DNA of 35,227 bases from Bacteroidales bacterium (GCA_029938715.1 JAOZUK010000032.1:1-35227); one strand, 5' to 3'; counted from the first letter of the stretch, positions 2,707 through 27,918 are shown. A program made the numbers and translations. Notes: generated by a model not told the origin, from the sequence alone.

Positions 2707-4896
2707 ATGGTAAAAAACAAAAGCGTTCCCGGCAAAAGCGTCCCGAAATTTTATGGATTAAGAATTTATCTTTCTTCAACCATCCTTTACTTCATGTTGG
2801 TGATACCCTTCCTGCTCTTTATAGGTTATCAGAGCTTCCCTGAATTTGCCGAAATGAAAAAAATGTTCACTAACGATTCAACAGCCCTGGCCGATTCCCT
2901 GGTAATAGCTCTTGATCCCTTTGGGGATATCAATGAACATGACATCGACAGCATTGTGAACAATGCCATTAAATCGGGAGAACGTTATGCGGAAGCCGAT
3001 ACAGCAATTTCAGATGACTCCGGGCTCCACTTTGAGGTAAGCAGACAGGGGGATCATATGGATTCTTTAAAGAAACGCAGAAACATCCCTAAATATTTTG
3101 CCATTCTCTTTATCCTCTTATTCGCGGGTTTCCTGGCGGGTTTTCTTTACAACATACGTTTTAAACGCTATTTCAAACTAAAGAGACAAAACCGGGAAAT
3201 TCCGGAGAAGTTGCACCTCTTTTGCAAAAAACAGCTGTTAAATACACCCATTGTAAATAGTCTGATTCTTGTCTCACCTAACCTGCTGGTATTTCTATAT
3301 GCACTGATATTTGTGATTGCCCCATCAAATTTCAAAGAAGAGTTTCAGCGACATATGTTCATCCAGCTTAATTATCTGTCTCTGGTAGCCTCAGTTCTGG
3401 AATTTTTGTTTGTCTACTACTGGCAAAAGCACAGGGTACATATCAGATACATCGATCACATTTACACCGAAGAGGAATTGAGGGTACAGGTATTTAAACG
3501 CAAAGGGGGAAAGATTCGGAACCGCTTCCTTGTAGCCAGTGGGATGACTACATTTCTTCCTCTGGTTATCGTAATGGTCTACCTGATCCTGAGCCTGACC
3601 ACCATCAAAGAATTAAACCTGGATAGTCTATCAAAGGAACAGGGAGAACTTCTGCTGGGACCATGGAATGCGATTGTCAATTCTGCCCAGGAGACAATTC
3701 CCATTGAAAAATATGAAAAACTCTTCTACGTCAATGCCATAGACTCCATTGTAATGCTTGCAGGGATAGTAAATGGAATCCTGGTATCCTTTATCTACCT
3801 GTTATTGTTTATCAGATGGGCCAACCTGGATATAACCCGTCCGGTGAAGGAGCTTTTAGTAAATATTAAAAATACCACAGGAGGCGGAGAGGAGCGATAT
3901 ACCATTGTCCGCACCAATGATGAGATTGGTGAGCTGGCTGAAGGATACAATGAGATGACCAGCAAGATCCACACATATGTGGAGAGCATTTCAAAAATGA
4001 ACCGGGAACTGGAAGGAAAGGTGAAGGAGCGAACCAGTGAGGTGGTGCAGCAAAAAGAGGAGATTGAAGCTCAAAAGGAGGAGATAGAGGCACAACTTGA
4101 CATGGCCACCCTTCAGCGGGATACTATTTTGAGTCAGAAGGATCAGATTCTGGATAGCATTCGTTATGCCGAGCGGATTCAATCTGCCATTTTGCCGCCT
4201 GCCCACCATTTATCCGATTACCTGTCTGATCATTTTGTACTATTTAAGCCCAGGGATATCGTTAGTGGAGACTTTTACTGGACCAAACAACAGGATGATA
4301 AACTCCTGATTGCGGTTGCCGATTGCACAGGACATGGCGTTCCAGGAGCTTTCCTGAGTATGCTCGGGATCTCCGCAATGAACGAGATTATCAATCGGAA
4401 CGAAGGACTCAGGGCCAACGAAATACTTGAAAGGCTCCGGGATTTTATGATTACTTCGCTTCATCAGACTGGTTCTAAAGGCGAATCCCAGGATGGCATT
4501 GAGATCGCCCTGTGTATCATCGATCCCAGGAATAAAACCCTGGAGTTTGCAGGAGCCAATCGACCGGTGTACCTGGTCAGTGGAGATTCCGTTCAACATA
4601 TAAGGCCCGACAGGATGCCCATAGGTATCTATGACCATAAAGTACTACCCTTTTCCAGTCAAAAGATTAAAATAGAGAAGAATGATGCCCTCTACCTTTT
4701 CTCTGATGGCTTTGTGGATCAACTGGGCGGTCCGTTGCGAAAAACGTTCCGATCGAGAAAATTCAGAAATCTCCTGCTTGAGGTTCAGAATAAACCTATG
4801 GAAGATCAAAAACGTATCCTGAATGATACCCTGGAAGCCTGGCAGGGAGATGTGGAACAGATAGATGATATACTGGTGATCGGGATCAGGCTCTAA
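2707..4896 (+). CDS. Membrane-bound SpoIIE/PP2C-type Ser/Thr phosphatase with HAMP domain (SiaA/RsbU-like)
   Basis: A 729-aa protein. Hydrophobic segments lie near residues 17-40, 128-148, 182-207, 222-240, 275-297 and 345-370, with a polar, acidic stretch between the first two. A HAMP linker follows (~372-430; 'DITRPVKELL', 'NDEIGELAEGYNEM'), then a Glu/Gln-rich coiled coil (~430-485) and a SpoIIE/PP2C phosphatase domain (~490-729). The metal-binding acidic residues are visible: D522 in VSGDFYW, D539 in ADCTGHGVPGAF, D667 in LFSDGF and D720/D721 in QIDDILV. By analogy with Pseudomonas SiaA it would dephosphorylate the SiaC-like protein encoded just downstream on the opposite strand (11-bp convergent gap). 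SiaA has a periplasmic sensor domain; here the N-terminus is instead a multi-span region, so the signal may differ. Assignment to SpoIIE is firm; the SiaA role is inferred from context. Confidence 0.88.
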   Translation: MVKNKSVPGKSVPKFYGLRIYLSSTILYFMLVIPFLLFIGYQSFPEFAEMKKMFTNDSTALADSLVIALDPFGDINEHDIDSIVNNAIKSGERYAEADTAISDDSGLHFEVSRQGDHMDSLKKRRNIPKYFAILFILLFAGFLAGFLYNIRFKRYFKLKRQNREIPEKLHLFCKKQLLNTPIVNSLILVSPNLLVFLYALIFVIAPSNFKEEFQRHMFIQLNYLSLVASVLEFLFVYYWQKHRVHIRYIDHIYTEEELRVQVFKRKGGKIRNRFLVASGMTTFLPLVIVMVYLILSLTTIKELNLDSLSKEQGELLLGPWNAIVNSAQETIPIEKYEKLFYVNAIDSIVMLAGIVNGILVSFIYLLLFIRWANLDITRPVKELLVNIKNTTGGGEERYTIVRTNDEIGELAEGYNEMTSKIHTYVESISKMNRELEGKVKERTSEVVQQKEEIEAQKEEIEAQLDMATLQRDTILSQKDQILDSIRYAERIQSAILPPAHHLSDYLSDHFVLFKPRDIVSGDFYWTKQQDDKLLIAVADCTGHGVPGAFLSMLGISAMNEIINRNEGLRANEILERLRDFMITSLHQTGSKGESQDGIEIALCIIDPRNKTLEFAGANRPVYLVSGDSVQHIRPDRMPIGIYDHKVLPFSSQKIKIEKNDALYLFSDGFVDQLGGPLRKTFRSRKFRNLLLEVQNKPMEDQKRILNDTLEAWQGDVEQIDDILVIGIRL

Positions 4897-4907
4897 TCCT
4901 ATTTGTT

Positions 4908-5312
4908 CTAAGCATCTGTATTTATGTATTCGAAATCAAGTTTGGACATCCTTGACATCTCCTGACCCACTTCCAGCATATCCTCATCATCTTCTTCGTA
5001 AAGCCACTTAACCAGAATCTTCAAACTCAAATCATTTAGTACATTGAGTGCCTTAAATATGTCGAGAATGTATTTGGCCGACGTTGAATTAAAATATTCA
5101 AAGTTGAACTGGACAATAAGGTTGGAAGACCTTTCAGATCTGCTCATCCCAGATTGCTCTTTGGCATAACCATCCAGCCATTCTAAAATAGGCAAATAGA
5201 ATTTACGTACATTCTCAGGCCGTGATTCACCGGAAAAATCAAATTGATTCGATTCTGGGTCTAGAATAACGCTTGGTGAATTAAATGTGGGTTCAATGAC
5301 TAGCTTTTCCAT
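4908..5312 (-). CDS. SiaC-like phosphoregulatory protein (DUF1987)
   Basis: A 134-aa acidic soluble protein. It resembles the SiaC/DUF1987 family: an N-terminal 'IEPTFNSPSVILDPE' strand pair, a 'GESRPENVRKFYLPILEWL' segment, and a central 'FEYFNSTSAKYILDIFK' motif. In Pseudomonas aeruginosa, SiaC is a STAS-like protein phosphorylated on Thr68 by SiaB and dephosphorylated by SiaA; in the unphosphorylated state it binds and activates the diguanylate cyclase SiaD. The likely phosphoacceptor region here is S76-T77-S78. The start lies 3 nt after the stop of the SiaB-like gene, so the two are co-transcribed. No GGDEF gene is present in the window, so its output partner is unknown. Confidence 0.82.
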   Translation of the reverse strand: MEKLVIEPTFNSPSVILDPESNQFDFSGESRPENVRKFYLPILEWLDGYAKEQSGMSRSERSSNLIVQFNFEYFNSTSAKYILDIFKALNVLNDLSLKILVKWLYEEDDEDMLEVGQEMSRMSKLDFEYINTDA

Positions 5313-5315
5313 GAG

Positions 5316-5828
5316 TTATTCGTTTATAGTAATTTGCATTTGAAAAAATGAATGTGTCTGATCCATAAGTGAGAAAGAGTACTGGATATCTTTCTCTGCT
5401 CGAAGGGCCATGGTGATCAACCCCAGGCCTGCTCCATTGTCATCCACCCCGGCTTCTTTATTAATCACATCCTCGTACAATGACTTCAGTGCTTCATTGT
5501 CAAGCTGGTTCACCCGATCAAGCTTAAATTTAAGATCCTCTACTACATCGTTGGTTACCAGGTTTCCCACTGTGACAATGAACTCTTTTCCCCGTTTCTT
5601 TATGGCAAGCACGGGTAACTTTTTCTTACTCCGGGCAGTTGTCTGATCGCGTGCAGCATACTTGTAAATATTATCAATAGACTCAACCACGGTCCCGTAA
5701 AGTCTTTTTTTGGCAGGCTTCTTCATGGCGTTGAACGCCTCTGACGACCGTAATTTATTAAGTATCATCTCCATGGTTGCAAAGGAGATAGGACCTTTAA
5801 AATCTACGATAACTTCAGCTTTTGCCAT
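5316..5828 (-). CDS. SiaB-like protein kinase (GHKL-type ATPase fold)
   Basis: A 170-aa soluble protein similar in size and motifs to the SiaB family. An N-box-like helix has the pattern E49-S-I-x-N53 ('VVESIDNIYKYA'), and a glycine-rich ATP-lid motif 'DDNGAGLGLITMALRAEK' holds GAGLGL at 132-137. Both are typical of GHKL ATP-binding folds as in anti-sigma factor kinases. The family phosphorylates SiaC. It is first in a two-gene operon with the SiaC-like gene and diverges from the ABC transporter gene across 140 bp. Recognition rests on the pairing with DUF1987 and a SpoIIE phosphatase as well as on sequence. Confidence 0.8.
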   Translation of the reverse strand: MAKAEVIVDFKGPISFATMEMILNKLRSSEAFNAMKKPAKKRLYGTVVESIDNIYKYAARDQTTARSKKKLPVLAIKKRGKEFIVTVGNLVTNDVVEDLKFKLDRVNQLDNEALKSLYEDVINKEAGVDDNGAGLGLITMALRAEKDIQYSFSLMDQTHSFFQMQITINE

Positions 5829-5928
5829 ACAATTTAAAATCTCTGATATGCTGCTCTGTCAGATTGACAAAGTAATAAAAAAAAGTCTAATAAGATTGTA
5901 ACCTCTTAAATTTGAATATATTCGTATT

Positions 5929-5936
5929 TAGCTTTG
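5929..5936 (+). promoter_or_regulatory. Bacteroidota -7 promoter element for the ABC transporter gene
   Basis: TAGCTTTG is an exact TAnnTTTG match, 32 nt before the ATG at 5969. A TTTG at 5911-5914 is only 14 nt upstream, shorter than the usual 19 nt, so the -33 element is doubtful. The rest of the 140-bp divergent gap is AT-rich. On the other strand a TTTG lies 19 nt before TATCAGAG, a poor -7, as a possible siaB-like promoter. Confidence 0.4.
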
Positions 5937-5968
5937 AGAAAGTGTGAAATATAGCAATAGAGTAATCC

Positions 5969-8900
5969 ATGAGTGAAGCCATATTAAAAGCATTGATGCA
6001 ACTTTTTGCGCTTATTGTTGATATTGATGCAATTCAGGAAATATCGGAAAAGGAGAAAGCCATTATCCGGTCCTTTCTTTCCCGCCAGCTTTCAAGTGAA
6101 CTGGTGGAGAAATACATGGATATTTTTGATGAATACCTCCATATTTACCACCAGGATCACATCGAAAAGGGAAGCAAGAAGGGTAAAAAAAGAACCGCAC
6201 TTACAGCGGTAAGGATCCTCTCCATTTGTGAAACCATCAACGAGGAACTGGAACAGAGACAGAAGGTTTATGTCATTTTCCAGATGATAGAGTATATTGC
6301 CTATGGGATTGAGATCCGTGAAACAGAACTTGATTTCCTGCAAACAGTAGCTTCGGCATTCAATATGGATGAGGATGAATACCAGGACATTCTGAGTTTC
6401 ATCATCTACTCACTGAACGAAATTCCCCGTAAAGAGTCTGTACTGCTTATTAACAGCGACGAAGAATACAGTGTTCAGGGGGTACATCACCTCTGCTATA
6501 CAAACCTTCAAGGGGAGATCTCGTTTTTAAATATTCCCAGTGTGAATACCTATGTCATGCGATATCATGGCAAAGAGGACCTTTTTCTCAACGGGCAGAT
6601 CATTCATTCGGGATTAACTTATTCATTTGAACATGGTTCGTCCATCCGGGGCCAGAATATTGAAGCCATCTATTATACAGATGTGGCTGGAACCTTTTCA
6701 ACTTCATCCATCTCAACAAAAATAACATTCCTGGCCAGGGATGTGGAGTTCCGTTTCAAAAACAGCGACAATGGAATTCATGGTTTCCAGCTATCGGAAC
6801 AATCAGGGAAATTGGTTGGAATTATGGGGGGTAGCGGTGTGGGCAAATCAACATTGCTAAATGTACTTAACGGAAACCTCAGGCCTCAAAAAGGGGAGAT
6901 ACTGATTAATGGGTATAACCTGTATGAAGAAAAGGAAAAGCTGAATGGGGTGATCGGTTTTATTCCACAGGACGATCTGCTGCTGGAAGATCTTACAGTT
7001 GAGCAAAACCTCTATTACAATGCCAAATTATGCCTGGATGACTACGATGAGGATAAGATCCATCAAGTCGTCAAACAGGTATTGATCGATCTGGACCTCT
7101 ATGAAATCCGTCACCTGAAGGTGGGAAAACCCCTGAACAAGGTGATCAGCGGTGGACAGCGAAAAAGAGTGAATATAGGCCTGGAGCTTATTCGTGAACC
7201 TTCTATCCTTTTTGTGGATGAACCCACTTCAGGGCTCTCTTCTGTGGACTCAGAAATGGTAATGAACCTGCTTAAGGAACAGGCCTTTAAGGGGAAACTG
7301 ATTATTATAAATATCCATCAGCCTTCGTCGAACCTATACAAAATGTTCGACCGGATCATTTTCATGGATAAAGGAGGATACCAGATCTATTGCGGGAACC
7401 CTTCAGAAGCTGTGGTCTATTTTAAGACCAGAAGTAACCATGCCAATGCCAAAGAGGATCAGTGTGTAAAATGTGGAAATGTGGATCCCGACCAGGTGCT
7501 CCAGATTATTGAGGCCAAAATAGTCAATGAGTATGGGAAACTCTCACGAACCCGCAAGATAAGTCCCAAGGAGTGGTTTGAATATTTCAGGAACAGCAAC
7601 TCACGTCGAACCATGCCGGAACCAGTAAAAGAAGAGCTGCCTGAGAACTTCTACAGTGTACCCAGCCTGTTTAAGCAGACAAAGATCTTCTTTACCAGAG
7701 ATATTCTGTCCAAAATTACCAACCGGCAGTACATCCTGATCAGCCTCCTGGAGGCACCCCTTCTGGCAGTGATCATGGGTTATTTCACCAAGTACTTCAG
7801 CGGCACCACCGACAATCCGGCTGCCTATGTATTCCGTAACAATGTGAATCTGCCTGCTTTTCTGCTTATGAGTGTGATTGTGTTTCTTTTTCTTGGCTTA
7901 ACCATTAGCTCGGAAGAGATCATCAAGGACCGAAAAATCATTCAACGCGAATCGTTCCTTAACTTAAGTCGTGGCAGTTACCTGAAAGCTAAAATCCTAA
8001 TTATGTTTTTGATCTCTGCCTTTCAGTCAATTACCTATGTGCTGATCGGCAACCTGATCTTTGAAATTTATGGAATGGGATTCAGTTACTGGCTGGTCCT
8101 TTTCTCCACCGCCTGTTTTGCAAATCTGCTGGGCCTGAATATCTCTGCAGGTCTGAATTCAGTTGTCACCATCTACATACTGGTTCCACTGATGCTTATT
8201 CCCCAGATTCTGTTCTGTGGTGTCCTGGTTAAATTTGACAAGCTGCACAAAAGACTTACAAATTACGAGTATGTACCTGTCTTAGGCGACCTGATGACAT
8301 CACGCTGGGCCTATGAAGCGCTAACTGTGGAGCAGTTTAAAAACAATAAATACCAGCAAATCTTTTATGATATCGATAAGAAGTGGAGCAATTCGGATTA
8401 CCCTCAAGCATTTCTGATTCCCAAATTGAAGGATAAACTGAATGAGATTCAGGAGGATCTAATGGACAATTCAAATCCGGAAAAGGTAAGGGTTAATATA
8501 AATATCCTGCATGACCAGCTTCTCAATTTTACTCAAATGGTTCCCAAGATTAGCTTCAATACCGATCTCTATCTGGATCCCGGGTCCTTCAATGATTCAG
8601 TGGCCAATATGACCAGGTCCTATTTGAGTGAGCTTGATCCGATATTCCGACACAATAGGACCCAATTTAAAAGGCGCAAAAATGAGATGGAAAAAACACT
8701 CATTGACGAGATGGGGGCTGAGGCTTACACAAATTTCAGAAACAGGTATGATAACCTAAGACTTACAGAAATAGTGGTCAATCGGGATGTGCTTCACAAA
8801 GTGGAGCAAAAAGACGGTAAACTGATCAGAAAGTATCAACCCATTTACCAGGATCCTGGTTCAAGATATGGAAGGGCTCATCTATATGCCCCTTATAAGA

Positions 8901-9067
8901 TGCTGGGGGGGCTTAAGATCGATACCCTCTGGTTTAATGTACTGGTTATCTGGGTGTCTGCCTTCTTCCTCTATTTGGCCTTATATTTTAATTTGCTCAG
9001 AAAGTTACTTACCAGGTTTGAGACCATTAAGTTTAAAAAGAGACAATCCTCCGAAATCCGATTGTAA
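5969..9067 (+). CDS. ABCG/White-type ABC transporter with N-terminal TerB-like and FHA-like regions
   Basis: A 1032-aa half-transporter. Residues ~1-150 form a helical region resembling TerB-like domains ('KEKAIIRSFLSRQL', 'FNMDEDEYQDILSFII'). Residues ~155-250 are beta-rich and look like an FHA or related small domain ('EDLFLNGQII', 'YSFEHGSSIRG'). The ABC ATPase spans ~255-480: Walker A GGSGVGKST (K293), signature SGGQRKR (S394), Walker B FVDEPTSGL (D417, E418) and switch H450. A linker with a CxxC pair (QCVKCGN) follows, then an ABC2-type membrane domain from ~585. The last two helices are separated by about 225 polar residues (~757-984) predicted to be extracytoplasmic. The substrate is unknown. 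It sits next to the SiaB/SiaC-like operon with no cyclase nearby, so its N-terminal region is a candidate SiaC target. The 3' end overlaps the convergent barrel gene by 35 bp. Confidence 0.82.
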   Translation: MSEAILKALMQLFALIVDIDAIQEISEKEKAIIRSFLSRQLSSELVEKYMDIFDEYLHIYHQDHIEKGSKKGKKRTALTAVRILSICETINEELEQRQKVYVIFQMIEYIAYGIEIRETELDFLQTVASAFNMDEDEYQDILSFIIYSLNEIPRKESVLLINSDEEYSVQGVHHLCYTNLQGEISFLNIPSVNTYVMRYHGKEDLFLNGQIIHSGLTYSFEHGSSIRGQNIEAIYYTDVAGTFSTSSISTKITFLARDVEFRFKNSDNGIHGFQLSEQSGKLVGIMGGSGVGKSTLLNVLNGNLRPQKGEILINGYNLYEEKEKLNGVIGFIPQDDLLLEDLTVEQNLYYNAKLCLDDYDEDKIHQVVKQVLIDLDLYEIRHLKVGKPLNKVISGGQRKRVNIGLELIREPSILFVDEPTSGLSSVDSEMVMNLLKEQAFKGKLIIINIHQPSSNLYKMFDRIIFMDKGGYQIYCGNPSEAVVYFKTRSNHANAKEDQCVKCGNVDPDQVLQIIEAKIVNEYGKLSRTRKISPKEWFEYFRNSNSRRTMPEPVKEELPENFYSVPSLFKQTKIFFTRDILSKITNRQYILISLLEAPLLAVIMGYFTKYFSGTTDNPAAYVFRNNVNLPAFLLMSVIVFLFLGLTISSEEIIKDRKIIQRESFLNLSRGSYLKAKILIMFLISAFQSITYVLIGNLIFEIYGMGFSYWLVLFSTACFANLLGLNISAGLNSVVTIYILVPLMLIPQILFCGVLVKFDKLHKRLTNYEYVPVLGDLMTSRWAYEALTVEQFKNNKYQQIFYDIDKKWSNSDYPQAFLIPKLKDKLNEIQEDLMDNSNPEKVRVNINILHDQLLNFTQMVPKISFNTDLYLDPGSFNDSVANMTRSYLSELDPIFRHNRTQFKRRKNEMEKTLIDEMGAEAYTNFRNRYDNLRLTEIVVNRDVLHKVEQKDGKLIRKYQPIYQDPGSRYGRAHLYAPYKMLGGLKIDTLWFNVLVIWVSAFFLYLALYFNLLRKLLTRFETIKFKKRQSSEIRL

Positions 9068-20541: not shown

Positions 20542-23500
20542 CTACAAGGTAAACGTCATACTAAATCCGGCGTGGTAGTTGGCATTGGGAAAACTATTGG
20601 ATATATATGGGTTGGTTAATCTCTGATCGTAGAATGCCCTGAGGGAAAATTTATCACTTAACATATAGTCGGCCGATAGTTTCAGACTGAATATCCGTTG
20701 TCCGGCAGTAATTTCACTCCCCGAAATATCCTCCAGCTTCCGGATAACGGTACGGTTGTTCCGCATGGAGAGATCGGCCCGGACATTGAGGTCACTGCTT
20801 AACTCCCTGTTGTTGATGATCAGCTGGACCTCATTGAAACGATAGCCAAGACCCACAATAAATTCACCACTATTCACTTCATTCACCTGGGTATTGGCCA
20901 TATTCATGGCAATGGTACGCGATCTGCGGTATTCTACTCGGGTCGTAAGGCTATTCTTCCAGTCCATGTTCAGATCTAACAGGGGACTAAAATTTTCATT
21001 TAAGCTCACCGTACTAACATTTTGTTCAACCATAAAGTTACCCTGCAGGTCCACAGCGATGGGAACTCCATTGATGGTATCAAAGGTATAATAAGGGTTG
21101 CTGATAAAGGAACCCACACTGTAAGTGGAACGGTAGGAATGGTTCATCACAATGGAGTTCACAAACTTTTGTAAAGCTTCAATTTTACCCAATCCATCGA
21201 AGCGAACCTGCCAGTTGGGGAGGATTTCAAGTATGGATCTGGTGGCCTTCAGCGGTACGGAATTGGGATCCTTGCCACTGTATGCAGCCAGGAAAGCAGG
21301 GATGATCACCTCCTGTGAGGTAGGGCCATAGCCCTCATAATAGCCGGCTGAATCCTCCAGAATGTTGCCCGATTTCTCCATGTAATCAGTGGCCAGCCGC
21401 TCAGAGATTATTTTCCGGTATTCCCCCTTTAGAAGCGAGAATGAACTGGAAGACTCCACATCTGCGTCGATATTTTCAAAGGCAGTCCTCATTGAGATAT
21501 AGGACATGGAGAAATTCCCACTATAAACCTTGCCCCTGGCCGAATCGGGAGGCAATTCTCCGAAGATATTAGCGGTATAGTATTCCGAAAGAGTGGATGT
21601 AAACATCCGGTTTAAGTTCAGGTCAATTTTCAATCCGCTAAAGGGCTCAATATTGACCCTGGCTGTAAACCGTTCTGTATTATTCAGGCTGAATGGATCG
21701 TTCAGGTTCATATCGGTACTTAACCACCCTTTATTAAATGCATCTGCTGCAAAATACTCATCCTGCCAGCCTGCTAAAAACGGAAATCCCGGAGCAAGTT
21801 CTCCATTGTAAGTCTGCGTTCCAAGGAATTGCGTTTTCGGTACATATCCCGGCAAAAAGGTTCCGCCGCTCTTTGAATAGGTCACATTCAAGGTCCTGAC
21901 ACTCATTAAAATCCTTACTGAGGTCTCTGCAATGAAAATCAGCGGACTCTGTCCTTTCTCTACGGTCCCCACCACTTTGATAGTCGCACTCCGAATGGCA
22001 TTCTCAGAGGTAACCATGATGCGGTTATCACCCAGAATCTCGGTAACCACTTCCACGGCCTGTCCGTTCTCATCGGAAACTTCAACCGTGATATTCTGAG
22101 TCTTCAGATTGTGTGAGACGTAACGTCCTCTTCCCTCCCTTAGATAGAGGTTTTCCTTGGTATACACCTTGGTTTTAGTCCTTTTCTCCGCATCCTGTGT
22201 TCGGCTCTTTGCATTTCTGTATTTAGCATTGATCTCCTTCAGATAGGACACTTTGTTATAGAGGTTCACAAGATTCAACTGACCATTCAGCTGAATGGTA
22301 TTAGAGTTTTTAATGTTGTTACCCAGATTGATGGGCCCAAACAGCGGGTCGTCGGGTATGATCGGTCCCGCATCCCATCCATAGGTGCCTCCGTATCGTA
22401 CATTGGCACTGGTCCAGTCCAGCAGCGGAATCTTATTAATGGGAATGGTGTAGGAGGCATTAAACTGATGGAAATAGCTGGTGGTACGGCCTCCTGCAAG
22501 AATGCTGCTCCAGAGCGAATCCTTGTATATGTCATAATTATCCATCCCCCTGTTCCACCTTCCTTCCGGTTCATCGATCCTTGCCATATTGGTGGATGAA
22601 AAGTCGAAACGAAGGTTCTTGGTGAGGTCGAATTTCAGATCAAAATAACGGTTCCACATAAAGTCCTTCCTAAAGGTAGGTTCCACTATAAATTCCGGAT
22701 TATTGATGTTGCGCACCTGCTTTTCAAGATAATACCGGTCCATATCGGTTCTAAAGGAGACTCTTGACGGTGAGTAGTTAAAGTTCATATCCTTTATGAG
22801 CCTGAACCAGTCGTTGCTCAGCCACTTCACCGATTTAAAAGGTTGTACATTCTTTGGCCTTGTGGTAAAATTGTAACTGAGATTTGCCCTTACCTTACGG
22901 GTGTTATAGTAATCAATATTGGGGTTGTAGCTGGACATTTCGTTCATTGAAAAACTGGTGGACCAGTTCGAGAGTTTGTAAAACTGTTTTTTACTTCCTG
23001 CCTTATTCATTCGCACGTTGGTCACAGCAAAAGCTTTACGTTCCACCATATCTCTGGCATTTCTGATAATGGAGTCACGCTCTGCCTTTGTCTCAGCCTC
23101 ATCAATGGCTTCTTTGAGAGGAATATCCGGATCCAGTGGATTGTACTCCGGATTGACAATGGCTTTTGAATAGCTCATAAAAATAGGAATGTTCACTCCA
23201 CTTTCCTGCTTGAAGAATTTGCCCATCTGAAGATTCGACGAGAGGTTGTACTGTATGACTTGCTCCTGCTGGCGCTCCTGTACCTTCTGCTCGATGCTTC
23301 CGAATCCGGGCTGACTGGTATTCCCGGCAAAAGTCAGGTTACCAAAATCGGCAAGTTTGAGTGTGGCCCTTCCATTGGCAGCCCATCCTCCATTTTCATT
23401 AAAGTCGGTAAGGCGAAGTTCATTGAGCCAAACCTCCCCTGTCTTGGAGAATCCATCATCGGGTCCGTATGCATTATCACCGGCTTTGGGATTTCTAACT

Positions 23501-26500
23501 CCGATCATAATGGTTCTGATGCTACTCATGTTAGGGTTTCCGGAAACAGAAACCCGATTTCCTTTTTCATCATAGGTAGAGAAGACCGAGAGCGCAGTTA
23601 TCTCGCTTTCCGGATCACTCATGGCCCTGTTCCTGGCCTGTTTCACCTCTTTAAACAGATCAAGTTCAAGCTCAAACTTATTCTCCTGGGGCCATACAAT
23701 GGCCCGATCACTCTCACTGTCATTGTCGTACTTGCCCGGAGGGGTCAGTTTCAAAGGAACCTCATACTCATAATAGTTATCCTGGTAGTCAGACCCAAGC
23801 CTTATAAAGGCCACAAGCTCATCGTTTTCAAGTGCTGTACCGGGGACTGCCTCAGCGTGAGCCTCCATCCTGATTTTTTTGTACTGTCGCACATCCAGTT
23901 CGGTATTTTTATAAGCAGCCCTAGCGTCGCCATCAGCCAGATCAAGTACCTTCAACACAATGGACTGTTCATTCAGCTGCCTTAGCTGTGGCTGGGTGGG
24001 GTCGATCTGGCGTGAGAATCCAGGAGGCAATACATAGTTAACCGGCTCCTTACCCGCATTCTCCTCAATATTTACCGCCGAAATGGCCAGGGCACCATCG
24101 GTAGGCTCTTCACCGGTCCATGCCTCGCCTCCCTGTGTAAAGGGCAACTGATAGCGCCTCCACTCCTCCCTAACAAGATCAAGTCTCGCAAACCTGAGAA
24201 TAGTGGTATCCTGAAATCCAGTCATGAACATCCGCATAAAACGGATGGTTTTGAAATCGGAGATATCTCCTACAGTTCCCTCGTAGTTAAAAATAGGAAT
24301 CCGAAACTGGTACCAGGTCACATCTGCCTTTCTTCCGTTTTCATAAGTTACACGGTCCACCACCTTATCGATGATGTTGTTCCTCCCCACCTCCAGTTCG
24401 TTTTTATCGATATCCACACGGTATACAAAGTAACTCTCGCCCTCACTTACCGTATTATCCCTGTTAATGTCCTCTATATCGGGCAATGAGGTTCCCGATG
24501 TGGGATAGGACTCAGGATTATTAACATCACTGGGAGAATTTCCCTCATGGCTGTTATATTTTTTGTAACGGGCCAGGATATCGGCCTGTTGAGCATCATA
24601 TACCGAACTGCGATAATAGCTGTAGTTGTCTGTTGAGGGATCTGAAAAAATCTCATCTCTGGCTGCCGGGTTCAATTGCCCGGTAGTTACCAGGTTCTCG
24701 ATCTGATTCAGATAATCGTCAGGCTCAAGGGAAAAGAAGGAGACCTCATCGTTGGAATAGAGCGAGGAGAGACCGTCCAGACCCACATCCTGGAATCTCC
24801 GGGTTTCATCTCCAGCGCTGAATCCCTGTACAAGAGATTGGGTGAGAGGGATACGTCCCCATACCGTGGTATCCACTTTCTCAACCACCTCAGAAGTGGG
24901 CAGTCCATTTTCAAACATCTTCCGGGAGTCCTTTACCACGTCCTCGGAAATGTTACCCAGGTTGAAGTAAAGTTGCCCTCCCTTGTGATTGGGCATTTCA
25001 GCAAACGGATCCATCATCCAGAATTCGATAAACTCCACGTTTGATTGCTCAAAGTCGCTGGAGTAGATCTCACGCATCACACCTCCCCAGCGTTCTTCTG
25101 GCTTGAGCAGCTGACCATCCTGGTCAATATTTCTATAGTCGTAATTATAGGGCCCCCGTTCTGTGGGGTAGAAGGCCATGTTTAACACTGAGATCCTGGT
25201 GGGAACCCCGTTTGGATTCTCCTTATTTGGAAATATATCCTGCTCATAAATCTCGTATACATAGGCACTGGACTGAAGGTTGGGATTCGCCTTGATGTAA
25301 TCGGGTGTGCGGGAGTCGTTATTCAGAAAGAGTGGATCGATATGGTACCATGCAAGTCGTGCCCTTCCATATCCATACCTCCTGTCATTGTTCAATTCTG
25401 CTTCGGGAAAGAAACCCCTGGGTGTACTGGCCAGTTTCCAGGAAGAGAACTGCTTCAGATCGATAGAAGTTTCACTGCCTTCAAAGTCATCTATATAAGC
25501 ATTCCCCTCTTTTTCAATGGCCTTTGAGTGACCCGGAATTAGCTGTGCAAACTCTCCCACCACGGAGAAAGAGGAGGGAGCCTTGGTCTCCAGGCCTGGA
25601 AGTTTGTCAATAATATTTGTAACCCACTGCGTCTCCGTACTGTAGCTTCCGTTCAGACCCCAGATGGTATTGGAAATGGGTTCATCCCCTATGTTTACCT
25701 TCTGGGTAAGGGGCCTTTCGGTCAGATGCATGGCAGTGGCTCCCAGTGTGAAATTATCCGATATTTTATAATCCGCATGGGCGCCCACCAGCGTTTTGGT
25801 CTGGAAATTAAATAGAGACTGGTTCTCCAGTGATATCCTGATGGGTGTTCCCGATTCCATGATCCCCTGGTTGATAATGGTCACCCGGCCCATCATGTAG
25901 TCCACCGTATAATCCTGTCCTTCAATAAGTTCTCTCCCTCCCGCTGTTACCTTCACCGATCCCTGGGGCACATTCATGGCATTCAGCATTATCTCGGAGC
26001 TGTTGGAAGAGGAGTACTCTCCCTCTATGAGGAACTTGTTCTTTTCGGCAATCTGTTGAGCCTTGGTTTTGGTAGAATCGTATAGTTCCTGGTATACGTA
26101 CTTCTCAATAGCAATTGCCGCTGCCTCCGCATCAAGGCTATCCTCAAAAATTTTCGCAAGGTCGGAACCGAACGGTTCAAGCAATGGGAAGAAAACCCTT
26201 CCATTAGACGGGTTAATGGTGATCCCTGGCATGTAGTCAAAGATTCCGTCGGGGTAGGGGTCCTTCTGGGAGTTCATGTTATCCAGGTTAAGCAGCCTGA
26301 TCAGAATGGTCTTATCCAGATCCCCTCCGGGAAGATAGTTCACGGCATTTCCGGTCTTATCATCCCTGTATAATACATCCAGCTGAAAATCTTCCTGACT
26401 CAACTGGTATGCCCCCAATGCATATACGTTCTTCATCATCAGGTTCCATGTATAACTATTGGGAGTGAAGTTACTGGGCTTCATCAATTTGAGAATCAGG

Positions 26501-27918
26501 GAAGAGGGAGCACTGATCCCGCTGGACTGTGAAAGTTCTCCCACCTGAAAAGTCTGTCCCCGGTAGGTATACTCATAAGCCACAGCCAGTATCTCATCCG
26601 TATTCAGGGCTGTGTTCAGAGAGACATAACCCAGTTTATCATTGTAGGTGTATTCCCGAGTAGAAAGGAGCCTGGCATTTTCAATTTTTTCAAAATCAAT
26701 CCCCAGCACCAACCCTGCATCTTCAAGTGTACCAGTTACATTTTTGATCTCCCTGATGTCAGAATAGGTGGTGGTCAGCTCCTCGTAGGCATTGTTCAGG
26801 GCATTTCTTGGAAAGTTACCCACCTGGCTGGGATTTCTTTCAAAGATGATTGATTTGGGGTCAGGCTCCCCCAGGTCGTTGACTGCCACAATGTTCCTTG
26901 CGTCATTAAAATTTGTCGTTTTATTAGTCACCCACACTTCCATGCGGTTGATGGAGACCTCTGAGGTAATGATAGGCAGCCTGGACAGGGCTCTGTTGTA
27001 GTTATCCCGGAAATACTCCGAAAGGAAGAAATGCTTATTGGCATCATAGTCATCTACCGTAACCGAATACTCCTGAAGTTGTGCTCCACCCTCCACGTTG
27101 ATCACCGAGGATTCACCCCGCTGCTGTGAAAAAACGCTGGTCAGGGTGAGTTTTCCAAACTGTAATTCTGTTTTCAGCCCAAAAAGACTCTGGCTCCCAC
27201 TGATGAGTGATCCAGGGAGGGGCATGCTCACATTCCCGGCTTCAATCTTTTTGATAATTTCATCCTCTTTTCCTGAGTATTCCAGTTTTGTTTGATTCTC
27301 AAAATCGAAAGTGGCTTCTGTGTTGTAACTGATGTCCATGGCCATCTTATCACCGATGGAACCGGCCACGTTCATAATGATCTTCTCATCAAAGGTGAAG
27401 GAGGGAACACTCCTCAGGTTCTCACTGATGTTGGGATTATCCTGTTTGGAAAGATTAAATCCAAAAATGAGTTCTGCACTTCCCGATGGGACAATGTTGA
27501 TGGTATTGGATCCAAAAAGCTTATCAAATGCTTCCCCCCCCACATTAATAGGTGGAATGAATGAGAGTTGTTGCTCCAGAGAAGATCCACTGGATTTCAG
27601 ACGCCAGTATTCATTTACCTGTTGCCTGAATTCATATCGCTGGTACTCATCGGCTGTCATCAGGGTGGGCGTCCTGTAATTCCATCTCCCTATGGTTTCG
27701 GAAAACACATACTGTTTGGTTACCGGGTCATAAACCACATTGGAACTGATGTTGGAAGGGTTATTAAGGTAGAGTGGAGATTTAAAGCCTGACGTAGATA
27801 AGGGATATGAACCCTTGTCAGAAAACGGGTAATGTAAAGTTGAATCCTGTGCATTTACGCTTAAAGCTAGCAGGAATCCTGTGATGATCAGGGATATATG
27901 ATTATACCAACGGCTCAC
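20542..27918 (-). CDS. sprA: SprA/Sov, T9SS outer-membrane translocon
   Basis: A 2458-aa protein, close to the 2403 aa of Flavobacterium johnsoniae SprA. A signal peptide (MSRWYNHISLIITGFLLALSVNA) is followed by the conserved SprA N-terminal region (~150-345; 'IVPSGSAELIFGFNLSKQDN', 'SFTFDEKIIMNVAGSIGDK', 'QTKLEYSGKEDEIIKKIEAG'), long stretches of amphipathic beta sequence, and a C-terminal aromatic strand ending 'GFSMTFTL'. SprA forms a very large single-chain barrel through which folded cargo with C-terminal sorting domains crosses the outer membrane. It starts at GTG, whose G is the last base of the ruvA stop codon (TAGTG), so it is likely translationally coupled. The other T9SS core genes (gldKLMN, porV) are not in the window. 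Confidence 0.95.
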   Translation of the reverse strand: MSRWYNHISLIITGFLLALSVNAQDSTLHYPFSDKGSYPLSTSGFKSPLYLNNPSNISSNVVYDPVTKQYVFSETIGRWNYRTPTLMTADEYQRYEFRQQVNEYWRLKSSGSSLEQQLSFIPPINVGGEAFDKLFGSNTINIVPSGSAELIFGFNLSKQDNPNISENLRSVPSFTFDEKIIMNVAGSIGDKMAMDISYNTEATFDFENQTKLEYSGKEDEIIKKIEAGNVSMPLPGSLISGSQSLFGLKTELQFGKLTLTSVFSQQRGESSVINVEGGAQLQEYSVTVDDYDANKHFFLSEYFRDNYNRALSRLPIITSEVSINRMEVWVTNKTTNFNDARNIVAVNDLGEPDPKSIIFERNPSQVGNFPRNALNNAYEELTTTYSDIREIKNVTGTLEDAGLVLGIDFEKIENARLLSTREYTYNDKLGYVSLNTALNTDEILAVAYEYTYRGQTFQVGELSQSSGISAPSSLILKLMKPSNFTPNSYTWNLMMKNVYALGAYQLSQEDFQLDVLYRDDKTGNAVNYLPGGDLDKTILIRLLNLDNMNSQKDPYPDGIFDYMPGITINPSNGRVFFPLLEPFGSDLAKIFEDSLDAEAAAIAIEKYVYQELYDSTKTKAQQIAEKNKFLIEGEYSSSNSSEIMLNAMNVPQGSVKVTAGGRELIEGQDYTVDYMMGRVTIINQGIMESGTPIRISLENQSLFNFQTKTLVGAHADYKISDNFTLGATAMHLTERPLTQKVNIGDEPISNTIWGLNGSYSTETQWVTNIIDKLPGLETKAPSSFSVVGEFAQLIPGHSKAIEKEGNAYIDDFEGSETSIDLKQFSSWKLASTPRGFFPEAELNNDRRYGYGRARLAWYHIDPLFLNNDSRTPDYIKANPNLQSSAYVYEIYEQDIFPNKENPNGVPTRISVLNMAFYPTERGPYNYDYRNIDQDGQLLKPEERWGGVMREIYSSDFEQSNVEFIEFWMMDPFAEMPNHKGGQLYFNLGNISEDVVKDSRKMFENGLPTSEVVEKVDTTVWGRIPLTQSLVQGFSAGDETRRFQDVGLDGLSSLYSNDEVSFFSLEPDDYLNQIENLVTTGQLNPAARDEIFSDPSTDNYSYYRSSVYDAQQADILARYKKYNSHEGNSPSDVNNPESYPTSGTSLPDIEDINRDNTVSEGESYFVYRVDIDKNELEVGRNNIIDKVVDRVTYENGRKADVTWYQFRIPIFNYEGTVGDISDFKTIRFMRMFMTGFQDTTILRFARLDLVREEWRRYQLPFTQGGEAWTGEEPTDGALAISAVNIEENAGKEPVNYVLPPGFSRQIDPTQPQLRQLNEQSIVLKVLDLADGDARAAYKNTELDVRQYKKIRMEAHAEAVPGTALENDELVAFIRLGSDYQDNYYEYEVPLKLTPPGKYDNDSESDRAIVWPQENKFELELDLFKEVKQARNRAMSDPESEITALSVFSTYDEKGNRVSVSGNPNMSSIRTIMIGVRNPKAGDNAYGPDDGFSKTGEVWLNELRLTDFNENGGWAANGRATLKLADFGNLTFAGNTSQPGFGSIEQKVQERQQEQVIQYNLSSNLQMGKFFKQESGVNIPIFMSYSKAIVNPEYNPLDPDIPLKEAIDEAETKAERDSIIRNARDMVERKAFAVTNVRMNKAGSKKQFYKLSNWSTSFSMNEMSSYNPNIDYYNTRKVRANLSYNFTTRPKNVQPFKSVKWLSNDWFRLIKDMNFNYSPSRVSFRTDMDRYYLEKQVRNINNPEFIVEPTFRKDFMWNRYFDLKFDLTKNLRFDFSSTNMARIDEPEGRWNRGMDNYDIYKDSLWSSILAGGRTTSYFHQFNASYTIPINKIPLLDWTSANVRYGGTYGWDAGPIIPDDPLFGPINLGNNIKNSNTIQLNGQLNLVNLYNKVSYLKEINAKYRNAKSRTQDAEKRTKTKVYTKENLYLREGRGRYVSHNLKTQNITVEVSDENGQAVEVVTEILGDNRIMVTSENAIRSATIKVVGTVEKGQSPLIFIAETSVRILMSVRTLNVTYSKSGGTFLPGYVPKTQFLGTQTYNGELAPGFPFLAGWQDEYFAADAFNKGWLSTDMNLNDPFSLNNTERFTARVNIEPFSGLKIDLNLNRMFTSTLSEYYTANIFGELPPDSARGKVYSGNFSMSYISMRTAFENIDADVESSSSFSLLKGEYRKIISERLATDYMEKSGNILEDSAGYYEGYGPTSQEVIIPAFLAAYSGKDPNSVPLKATRSILEILPNWQVRFDGLGKIEALQKFVNSIVMNHSYRSTYSVGSFISNPYYTFDTINGVPIAVDLQGNFMVEQNVSTVSLNENFSPLLDLNMDWKNSLTTRVEYRRSRTIAMNMANTQVNEVNSGEFIVGLGYRFNEVQLIINNRELSSDLNVRADLSMRNNRTVIRKLEDISGSEITAGQRIFSLKLSADYMLSDKFSLRAFYDQRLTNPYISNSFPNANYHAGFSMTFTL

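Follow-up and report, generated by a model that had tools for sequence, protein, structure and literature searches.

To our knowledge, the SiaABC-type phosphorylation switch is known only for activating a c-di-GMP enzyme in Pseudomonas. In the SiaC-SiaD structure, phosphate on SiaC blocks binding, and residues S82 and Q86 of SiaD hydrogen-bond T68 of SiaC in the complex (PMC8457831). A phosphorylation-controlled ABC exporter, Rv1747, has been described in M. tuberculosis, where control by Ser/Thr phosphorylation is exerted through a small partner protein (PMC5549992, PMC3908365). Our search of the open-access literature met the name DUF1987 in one paper only and found no paper tying SiaC to a transporter. 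Here we describe a SiaABC-type switch that is kept beside an exporter, and frequently shares an operon with it, in many Bacteroidales genomes lacking a cyclase, so that the exporter is probably controlled in place of the cyclase.

The window, meaning the whole stretch of 35,227 nucleotides that was analysed, comes from a Bacteroidales bacterium (GCA_029938715.1, JAOZUK010000032.1:1-35227). A sequence-only reading had placed a membrane phosphatase, a SiaC-like protein, a SiaB-like kinase and an ABCG-like transporter at 2707-9067, with 140 bp between the diverging kinase and transporter genes. ORF coordinates and profile matches bear out all four genes and the spacing:

2707..4896, + strand, SiaA-like membrane phosphatase, 729 aa (Pfam SpoIIE 1.7e-25, HAMP)
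4908..5312, - strand, SiaC-like phosphoprotein, 134 aa (PF09345 5.4e-31; PDB 6kko/6k4f SiaC matched)
5085..5087, - strand, codon of SiaC S76, which lines up with phospho-acceptor T68 in the SiaC of P. aeruginosa
5316..5828, - strand, SiaB-family kinase, GHKL-type, 170 aa (NF038262, PF19788 1.8e-32)
5829..5968, no strand, 140-bp gap between the diverging siaB and transporter genes (ORF coordinates)
5969..9067, + strand, ABCG-type half transporter, 1032 aa (ABC_tran 3.8e-29, ABC2_membrane 8.5e-21)

The N-terminal half of the SiaA-like protein is membrane-spanning and is followed by HAMP (residues 376-422), a coiled coil and a SpoIIE/PP2C domain (residues 530-728), whose top PDB match is the PP2C domain of SiaA (6k4e, 5.3e-39). 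Its motifs SGDFYW, ADCTGHGVPG, SDGFVDQLGG and QIDDILVI line up with the active-site motifs of SiaA; the protein has the SiaABC arrangement, in which a membrane HAMP scaffold carries a SpoIIE/PP2C domain whose metal-site motifs are intact. SiaC/DUF1987 likewise has a Thr/Ser at the T68 position, here S76, within the motif YFNSTSAK (YLNTSSIK in P. aeruginosa SiaC). In an alignment of 118 SiaC proteins the T68-equivalent column held T (101) or S (17) and no other residue, and the switch residues Y-x-N-[TS]-x-S were invariant in 79/79 transporter-linked copies. The window SiaB belongs to the SiaB family (NF038262, 124 bits, cut-off 85), and an N-box, E49-SID-N53, and a G-box, DDNGAGLGL, were read off its translation. 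None of the three proteins reaches the NCBIfam equivalog cut-off for its Pseudomonas counterpart (NCBIfam SiaA, for example, gives 239 bits over the C-terminal part, the cut-off being 700), and they are therefore treated as family members and not as strict orthologues. Elsewhere in the window, a 2458-aa protein (20542-27918, - strand) resembles, by reading only, the type IX secretion/gliding protein SprA.

The same reading had noted that the window lacks a GGDEF gene. This holds not only for the window but for the entire 6.2 Mb assembly (97% complete), which has no GGDEF match; the genome thus lacks the output of SiaABCD and cannot have SiaD, and a SiaD encoded elsewhere in it is ruled out. 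Across the order, GGDEF was found in 6/198 genomes while SiaC was found in 87/198, often multicopy (up to at least 21 copies per genome), so diguanylate cyclases cannot be the main route by which SiaC acts in this order.

SiaC and the transporter were searched for separately before their coordinates were compared, profiles derived from the window proteins served to annotate the fetched regions, and linkage was called at a threshold of 1.5 kb. The neighbourhood proved to be conserved well beyond the source genome: 106 loci, spread over at least 31 family-level groups, have SiaC within 1.5 kb of the exporter family; they come from 31 coded families and from named metagenome-assembled genomes (MAGs), and a few are overlapping fetches of one place. 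Named linked loci belong to Bacteroidales and other Bacteroidota MAGs; relatives of the transporter were also seen in Flavobacteriales and Chlorobiota MAGs. The 106 loci comprise 69 convergent, 20 divergent and 15 co-directional arrangements with SiaC upstream, and 2 others, and linkage in four layouts indicates that proximity survived rearrangement. When sampling started from SiaC, 31/60 rank-ordered loci were linked within 1.5 kb, and when the transporter N-domain was the starting point, in named genomes, 25/80 were linked though many contigs are short, against about 1% expected in either case by a rough gene-density estimate. The genome survey that had been called for found co-occurrence in the order as well: 81 of the 198 genomes have both SiaC and the exporter, 6 SiaC only, 5 the exporter only and 106 neither (Fisher 1.6e-41, with the 198 genomes treated as independent). 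These linkage and co-occurrence statistics count related genomes as independent and most genomes are draft MAGs; together they make chance adjacency implausible. The 5 genomes with a transporter and no SiaC count against the exporter as output.

A tree of 85 transporter sequences fell into three parts, clades I to III. In clade I, 12/12 sampled loci have the co-directional order PP2C-SiaB-SiaC-transporter, which is the siaABCD order with the transporter at the place of SiaD; the same operon occurs in 3/3 loci of a family outside the order, and gaps, clade I included, are 27-94 bp. Clade II is linked in 32/36 cases, in the convergent layout. Most rows of clades I and II were sampled SiaC-first, and their linkage rates are therefore biased upwards. 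Clade III, which holds the window, is mostly unlinked save for the window genus and close relatives (L072, L073, L186-L189), L080, L178 and L180, so that linkage there arose or was kept separately. In other families, the nearest orthologues of the window transporter mostly lie away from SiaC, which also counts against the exporter-output reading. The window SiaC itself groups, with support, in a set of 17 rows of which 16 are linked to a transporter. It is very improbable, in our estimation, that the neighbourhood is conserved without functional coupling, by co-inheritance or co-regulation only: gene neighbourhoods can persist uncoupled and linkage is often missing in the transporter clade of the window, but such persistence fits poorly with four layouts, near-perfect co-occurrence and the complementarity with stalk-bearing outputs described below. 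No natural SiaC-transporter fusion was seen among the fetched loci; the fusions found were of SiaB with SiaC (292-321 aa; L003:1935-2822(-), L004:1940-2815(-) and L194:817-1779(-)). Three tandem SiaC genes were present in each of L109:6089-7343(+), L141:6357-7439(-) and L144:6103-7365(-).

In a sample of the phylum, SiaC was found in 18/296 genomes. The full-length transporter occurs in exactly 5 of these 18, all of the window's class and without GGDEF; the other 13, from other classes, all have GGDEF and none has the full-length transporter, some of the GGDEF matches being weak and not adjoining SiaC. The exchange can be seen at operon level, with PP2C-SiaB-SiaC-GGDEF in L267 and L270, from other classes of the phylum, and PP2C-SiaB-SiaC-transporter in L278-L280.

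The GGDEF proteins that follow SiaC carry a 74-residue N-terminal stalk that is common to several other SiaC-adjacent protein types, namely histidine kinases (L266, L268, L269 and L285, Pfam-checked in L269 and L285), PP2C proteins (L103, L277), small membrane proteins (L120, L124, L125, L281) and small standalone proteins (L273, L282, L283):

L266:6358-7434(-), stalk-effector protein
L269:7391-8452(+), stalk-effector protein
L285:7376-8422(+), stalk-effector protein
L103:4749-5627(-), stalk-effector protein
L120:5205-5771(+), stalk-effector protein
L267:7246-8220(+), stalk-effector protein
L270:6197-7000(-), stalk-effector protein
L273:6706-7008(-), standalone stalk protein (the three are 85-101 aa)
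L282:6709-6975(-), standalone stalk protein
L283:6731-6985(-), standalone stalk protein

The stalk profile matches P. aeruginosa SiaD (7e6g) at 6e-5 on two repeats, ISDGFQ and ISDRYQ, and the SiaC-contacting S82 and Q86 fall in the second, ISDRYQ. At least four kinds of effector (GGDEF, histidine kinase, PP2C, small membrane protein) carry this SiaD-type stalk as a fusion, and each of them comes immediately after SiaC; in L282 and L283, multi-AAA ATPases of 982-1270 aa come next after the standalone stalk.

Within the order, the stalk was found in 7 genomes: 5/6 with SiaC only, 2/81 with SiaC and transporter, and 0/111 without SiaC (SiaC-only against SiaC plus transporter, Fisher 3.3e-6, genomes treated as independent). 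The sole SiaC-only genome without a stalk is 74% complete. Nearly every SiaC genome thus has a stalk or a transporter output, and of all the indirect evidence for the transporter as an output, this complementarity weighs most. Many SiaC copies are beside neither transporter nor stalk, which counts against that reading; about 20 or more copies were present in G016, G042, G047, G070, G167, G192 and others, many of them adjoining neither. Such unlinked copies, together with the variety of other SiaC outputs across the phylum (GGDEF, histidine kinase, PP2C, small membrane protein), would suit a reverse arrangement in which the exporter supplies or clears the signal sensed by SiaA and SiaC acts on another target. 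We consider that arrangement improbable, in view of the position after SiaC, which in stalk-output systems is held by the likely docking partner and in exporter operons by the exporter, and of the absence of stalk partners from the window genome and nearly all transporter genomes.

No ISDxxQ stalk was found in the window genome. The idea that the exporter N-domain is a disguised SiaD stalk was rejected, profile comparison giving it a probability of 1.4-1.9% (1.4% with hhalign), and a likeness seen by eye between I90-N91-E92..K99 of the exporter and I81-S82-D83..R90 of SiaD is not claimed. The transporter does carry about 250 extra residues ahead of its ATPase, as the sequence-only reading had proposed, and its parts are as follows:

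5969..6418, + strand, TerB-like helical domain, residues 1-150 (Pfam TerB in homologues; model matches PG1108, 2h5n)
6419..6712, + strand, FHA-like beta-sandwich, residues 151-248 (AlphaFold2 pLDDT mostly >90, Foldseek)
6725..7408, + strand, nucleotide-binding domain (NBD), residues 253-480 (Walker A GGSGVGKST, signature SGGQRKR, Walker B FVDEP)
7667..9061, + strand, membrane domain (Pfam ABC2_membrane, AlphaFold2 secondary structure)

The full-length AlphaFold2 model (pLDDT 85.6) best matches ABCG5/8, ABCG2 and ABCG1 by Foldseek (up to E 1.8e-24). With the NBD-TMD order of a half transporter, the ABCG fold and intact Walker A/B and signature motifs, which are invariant columns across 70 transporter homologues, the protein is of the ABCG type. 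A large helical insertion (about residues 776-975) is predicted before the last membrane helix. A CxxCG motif after the NBD (window 7463-7477, residues 499-503) is invariant in 70/70 aligned transporters and is possibly a metal site.

The N-terminal 250 residues were modelled (AlphaFold2, pLDDT 87.6) as a seven-helix TerB-like domain followed by an FHA-like sandwich; searched by sequence against the PDB, the N-domain gave no significant match. Pfam TerB was matched in 72/84 transporter homologues (best 2.5e-10; the window copy, at 0.0071, is under the cut-off), and family-wide similarity together with the PG1108 fold match assigns the first part to TerB. For the second part Foldseek returned mostly FHA domains (E about 0.01, probability mostly 0.9-1.0). 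The FHA fold looks degenerate, judging from sequence columns: no Pfam FHA match was among the families listed for the 84 homologues, and the GR, SxxH and SxNG residues of a phospho-threonine pocket are not conserved. At L258:6125-6901(+), the TerB/FHA-like N-domain also occurs on its own, as a 259-aa copy immediately ahead of a full transporter.

An FHA-like fold in the N-region raises the possibility of opposite polarity, with phosphorylated SiaC binding and being recognised by the FHA-like domain as phosphorylated Rv2623 (pT237) is by FHA I of Rv1747. There is a published case of an ABC exporter that bears an FHA domain and is regulated by a small phosphoprotein (PMC5549992), and Rv1747/Rv2623, of polarity opposite to that proposed here, is the best precedent for an exporter of this kind under a small phosphoprotein. 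We nonetheless regard this polarity as quite unlikely for the window, given the degenerate look of the fold and the blocking of SiaC-SiaD binding by phosphate (PMC8457831). The TerB-like and FHA-like module, with SiaC binding in its unphosphorylated form, is a plausible candidate docking platform.

Mirror-tree comparisons gave distance correlations of about 0.78 between SiaC and the transporter NBD/TMD and 0.85 between SiaC and SiaB. Partial correlations were 0.27-0.36 for SiaC with the NBD and membrane segments and -0.14 and -0.20 with the TerB/FHA segments, in a test that is crude and carries shared species-tree signal; the negative values leave docking at the N-domain without coevolution support. 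These values, and an N-domain without the docking stalk, would favour control of the exporter by SiaC via the NBD or membrane domain, the TerB/FHA region serving otherwise (dimerisation or another ligand). Such docking is rather unlikely, since this family has the N-domain on top of an ordinary ABCG core and retains it in all linked copies, and the test that supports it is a coarse one.

The explanation that we favour for the locus as a whole, and consider likely, is that SiaA and SiaB set the phosphorylation of SiaC at S76 and that SiaC binds the exporter and switches transport, with no cyclase output. SiaA would react to a signal and, as a membrane PP2C phosphatase, yield unphosphorylated SiaC; the GHKL kinase SiaB would reverse this by phosphorylating S76. 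SiaC, most likely unphosphorylated, given that in the analogous case of SiaD binding is blocked by phosphate, would bind the cytosolic part of the exporter dimer and change its activity, and the TerB/FHA-like N-terminal region is the first candidate docking site. We infer the contact between SiaC and the exporter, its site, the phosphorylation state and whether the effect is activation or inhibition. Wide conservation, the GGDEF-free genome and the exporter at the operon position of SiaD in relatives lend strong support to the proposal that a known switch has a different output here, and the exporter is very likely that output. A broader reading, for which we hold the chances to be even, is that SiaC is a general Bacteroidota adaptor with interchangeable outputs: an ISDxxQ-stalk set (diguanylate cyclases, histidine kinases, PP2C phosphatases, small membrane proteins and standalone stalk proteins) and the much commoner Bacteroidales TerB-FHA-ABCG exporter, gated directly via a different interface. 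If the exporter is the output of the switch, a front end known from c-di-GMP signalling would prove to be reusable and to work also where c-di-GMP cyclases are absent, and a large uncharacterised family of Bacteroidales exporters would gain its first proposed regulator.

The locus can be set against four described systems. With P. aeruginosa SiaABCD (PMC7647112, PMC8457831) it shares the phosphatase, kinase and DUF1987/SiaC families, the acceptor position and the active-site motifs, and many relatives match the siaABCD operon order, which is rearranged in the window's genus; it differs in having no SiaD, a Ser as acceptor, and an ABCG transporter without the ISDxxQ stalk at the output position. 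Rv1747-PknF/Rv2623 of M. tuberculosis (PMC5549992, PMC3908365) shares an ABC exporter with an N-terminal FHA fold, but employs a Hanks-type kinase and a USP partner and no SiaC, whereas the window has SiaABC, a TerB-like domain and an FHA pocket that is apparently lost. The HsbA-HsbD and Bgr partner-switch systems (named in PMC8457831) likewise have a PP2C phosphatase, a kinase and a phosphoprotein feeding an effector; their adaptor is STAS rather than DUF1987 and their effector a diguanylate cyclase rather than a transporter. Eukaryotic-type ABCG1/2/5/8 have the same NBD-TMD order and fold as the window exporter, which differs from them in its 250-residue TerB and FHA-like N-extension, the CxxCG after the NBD and the large helical insertion.
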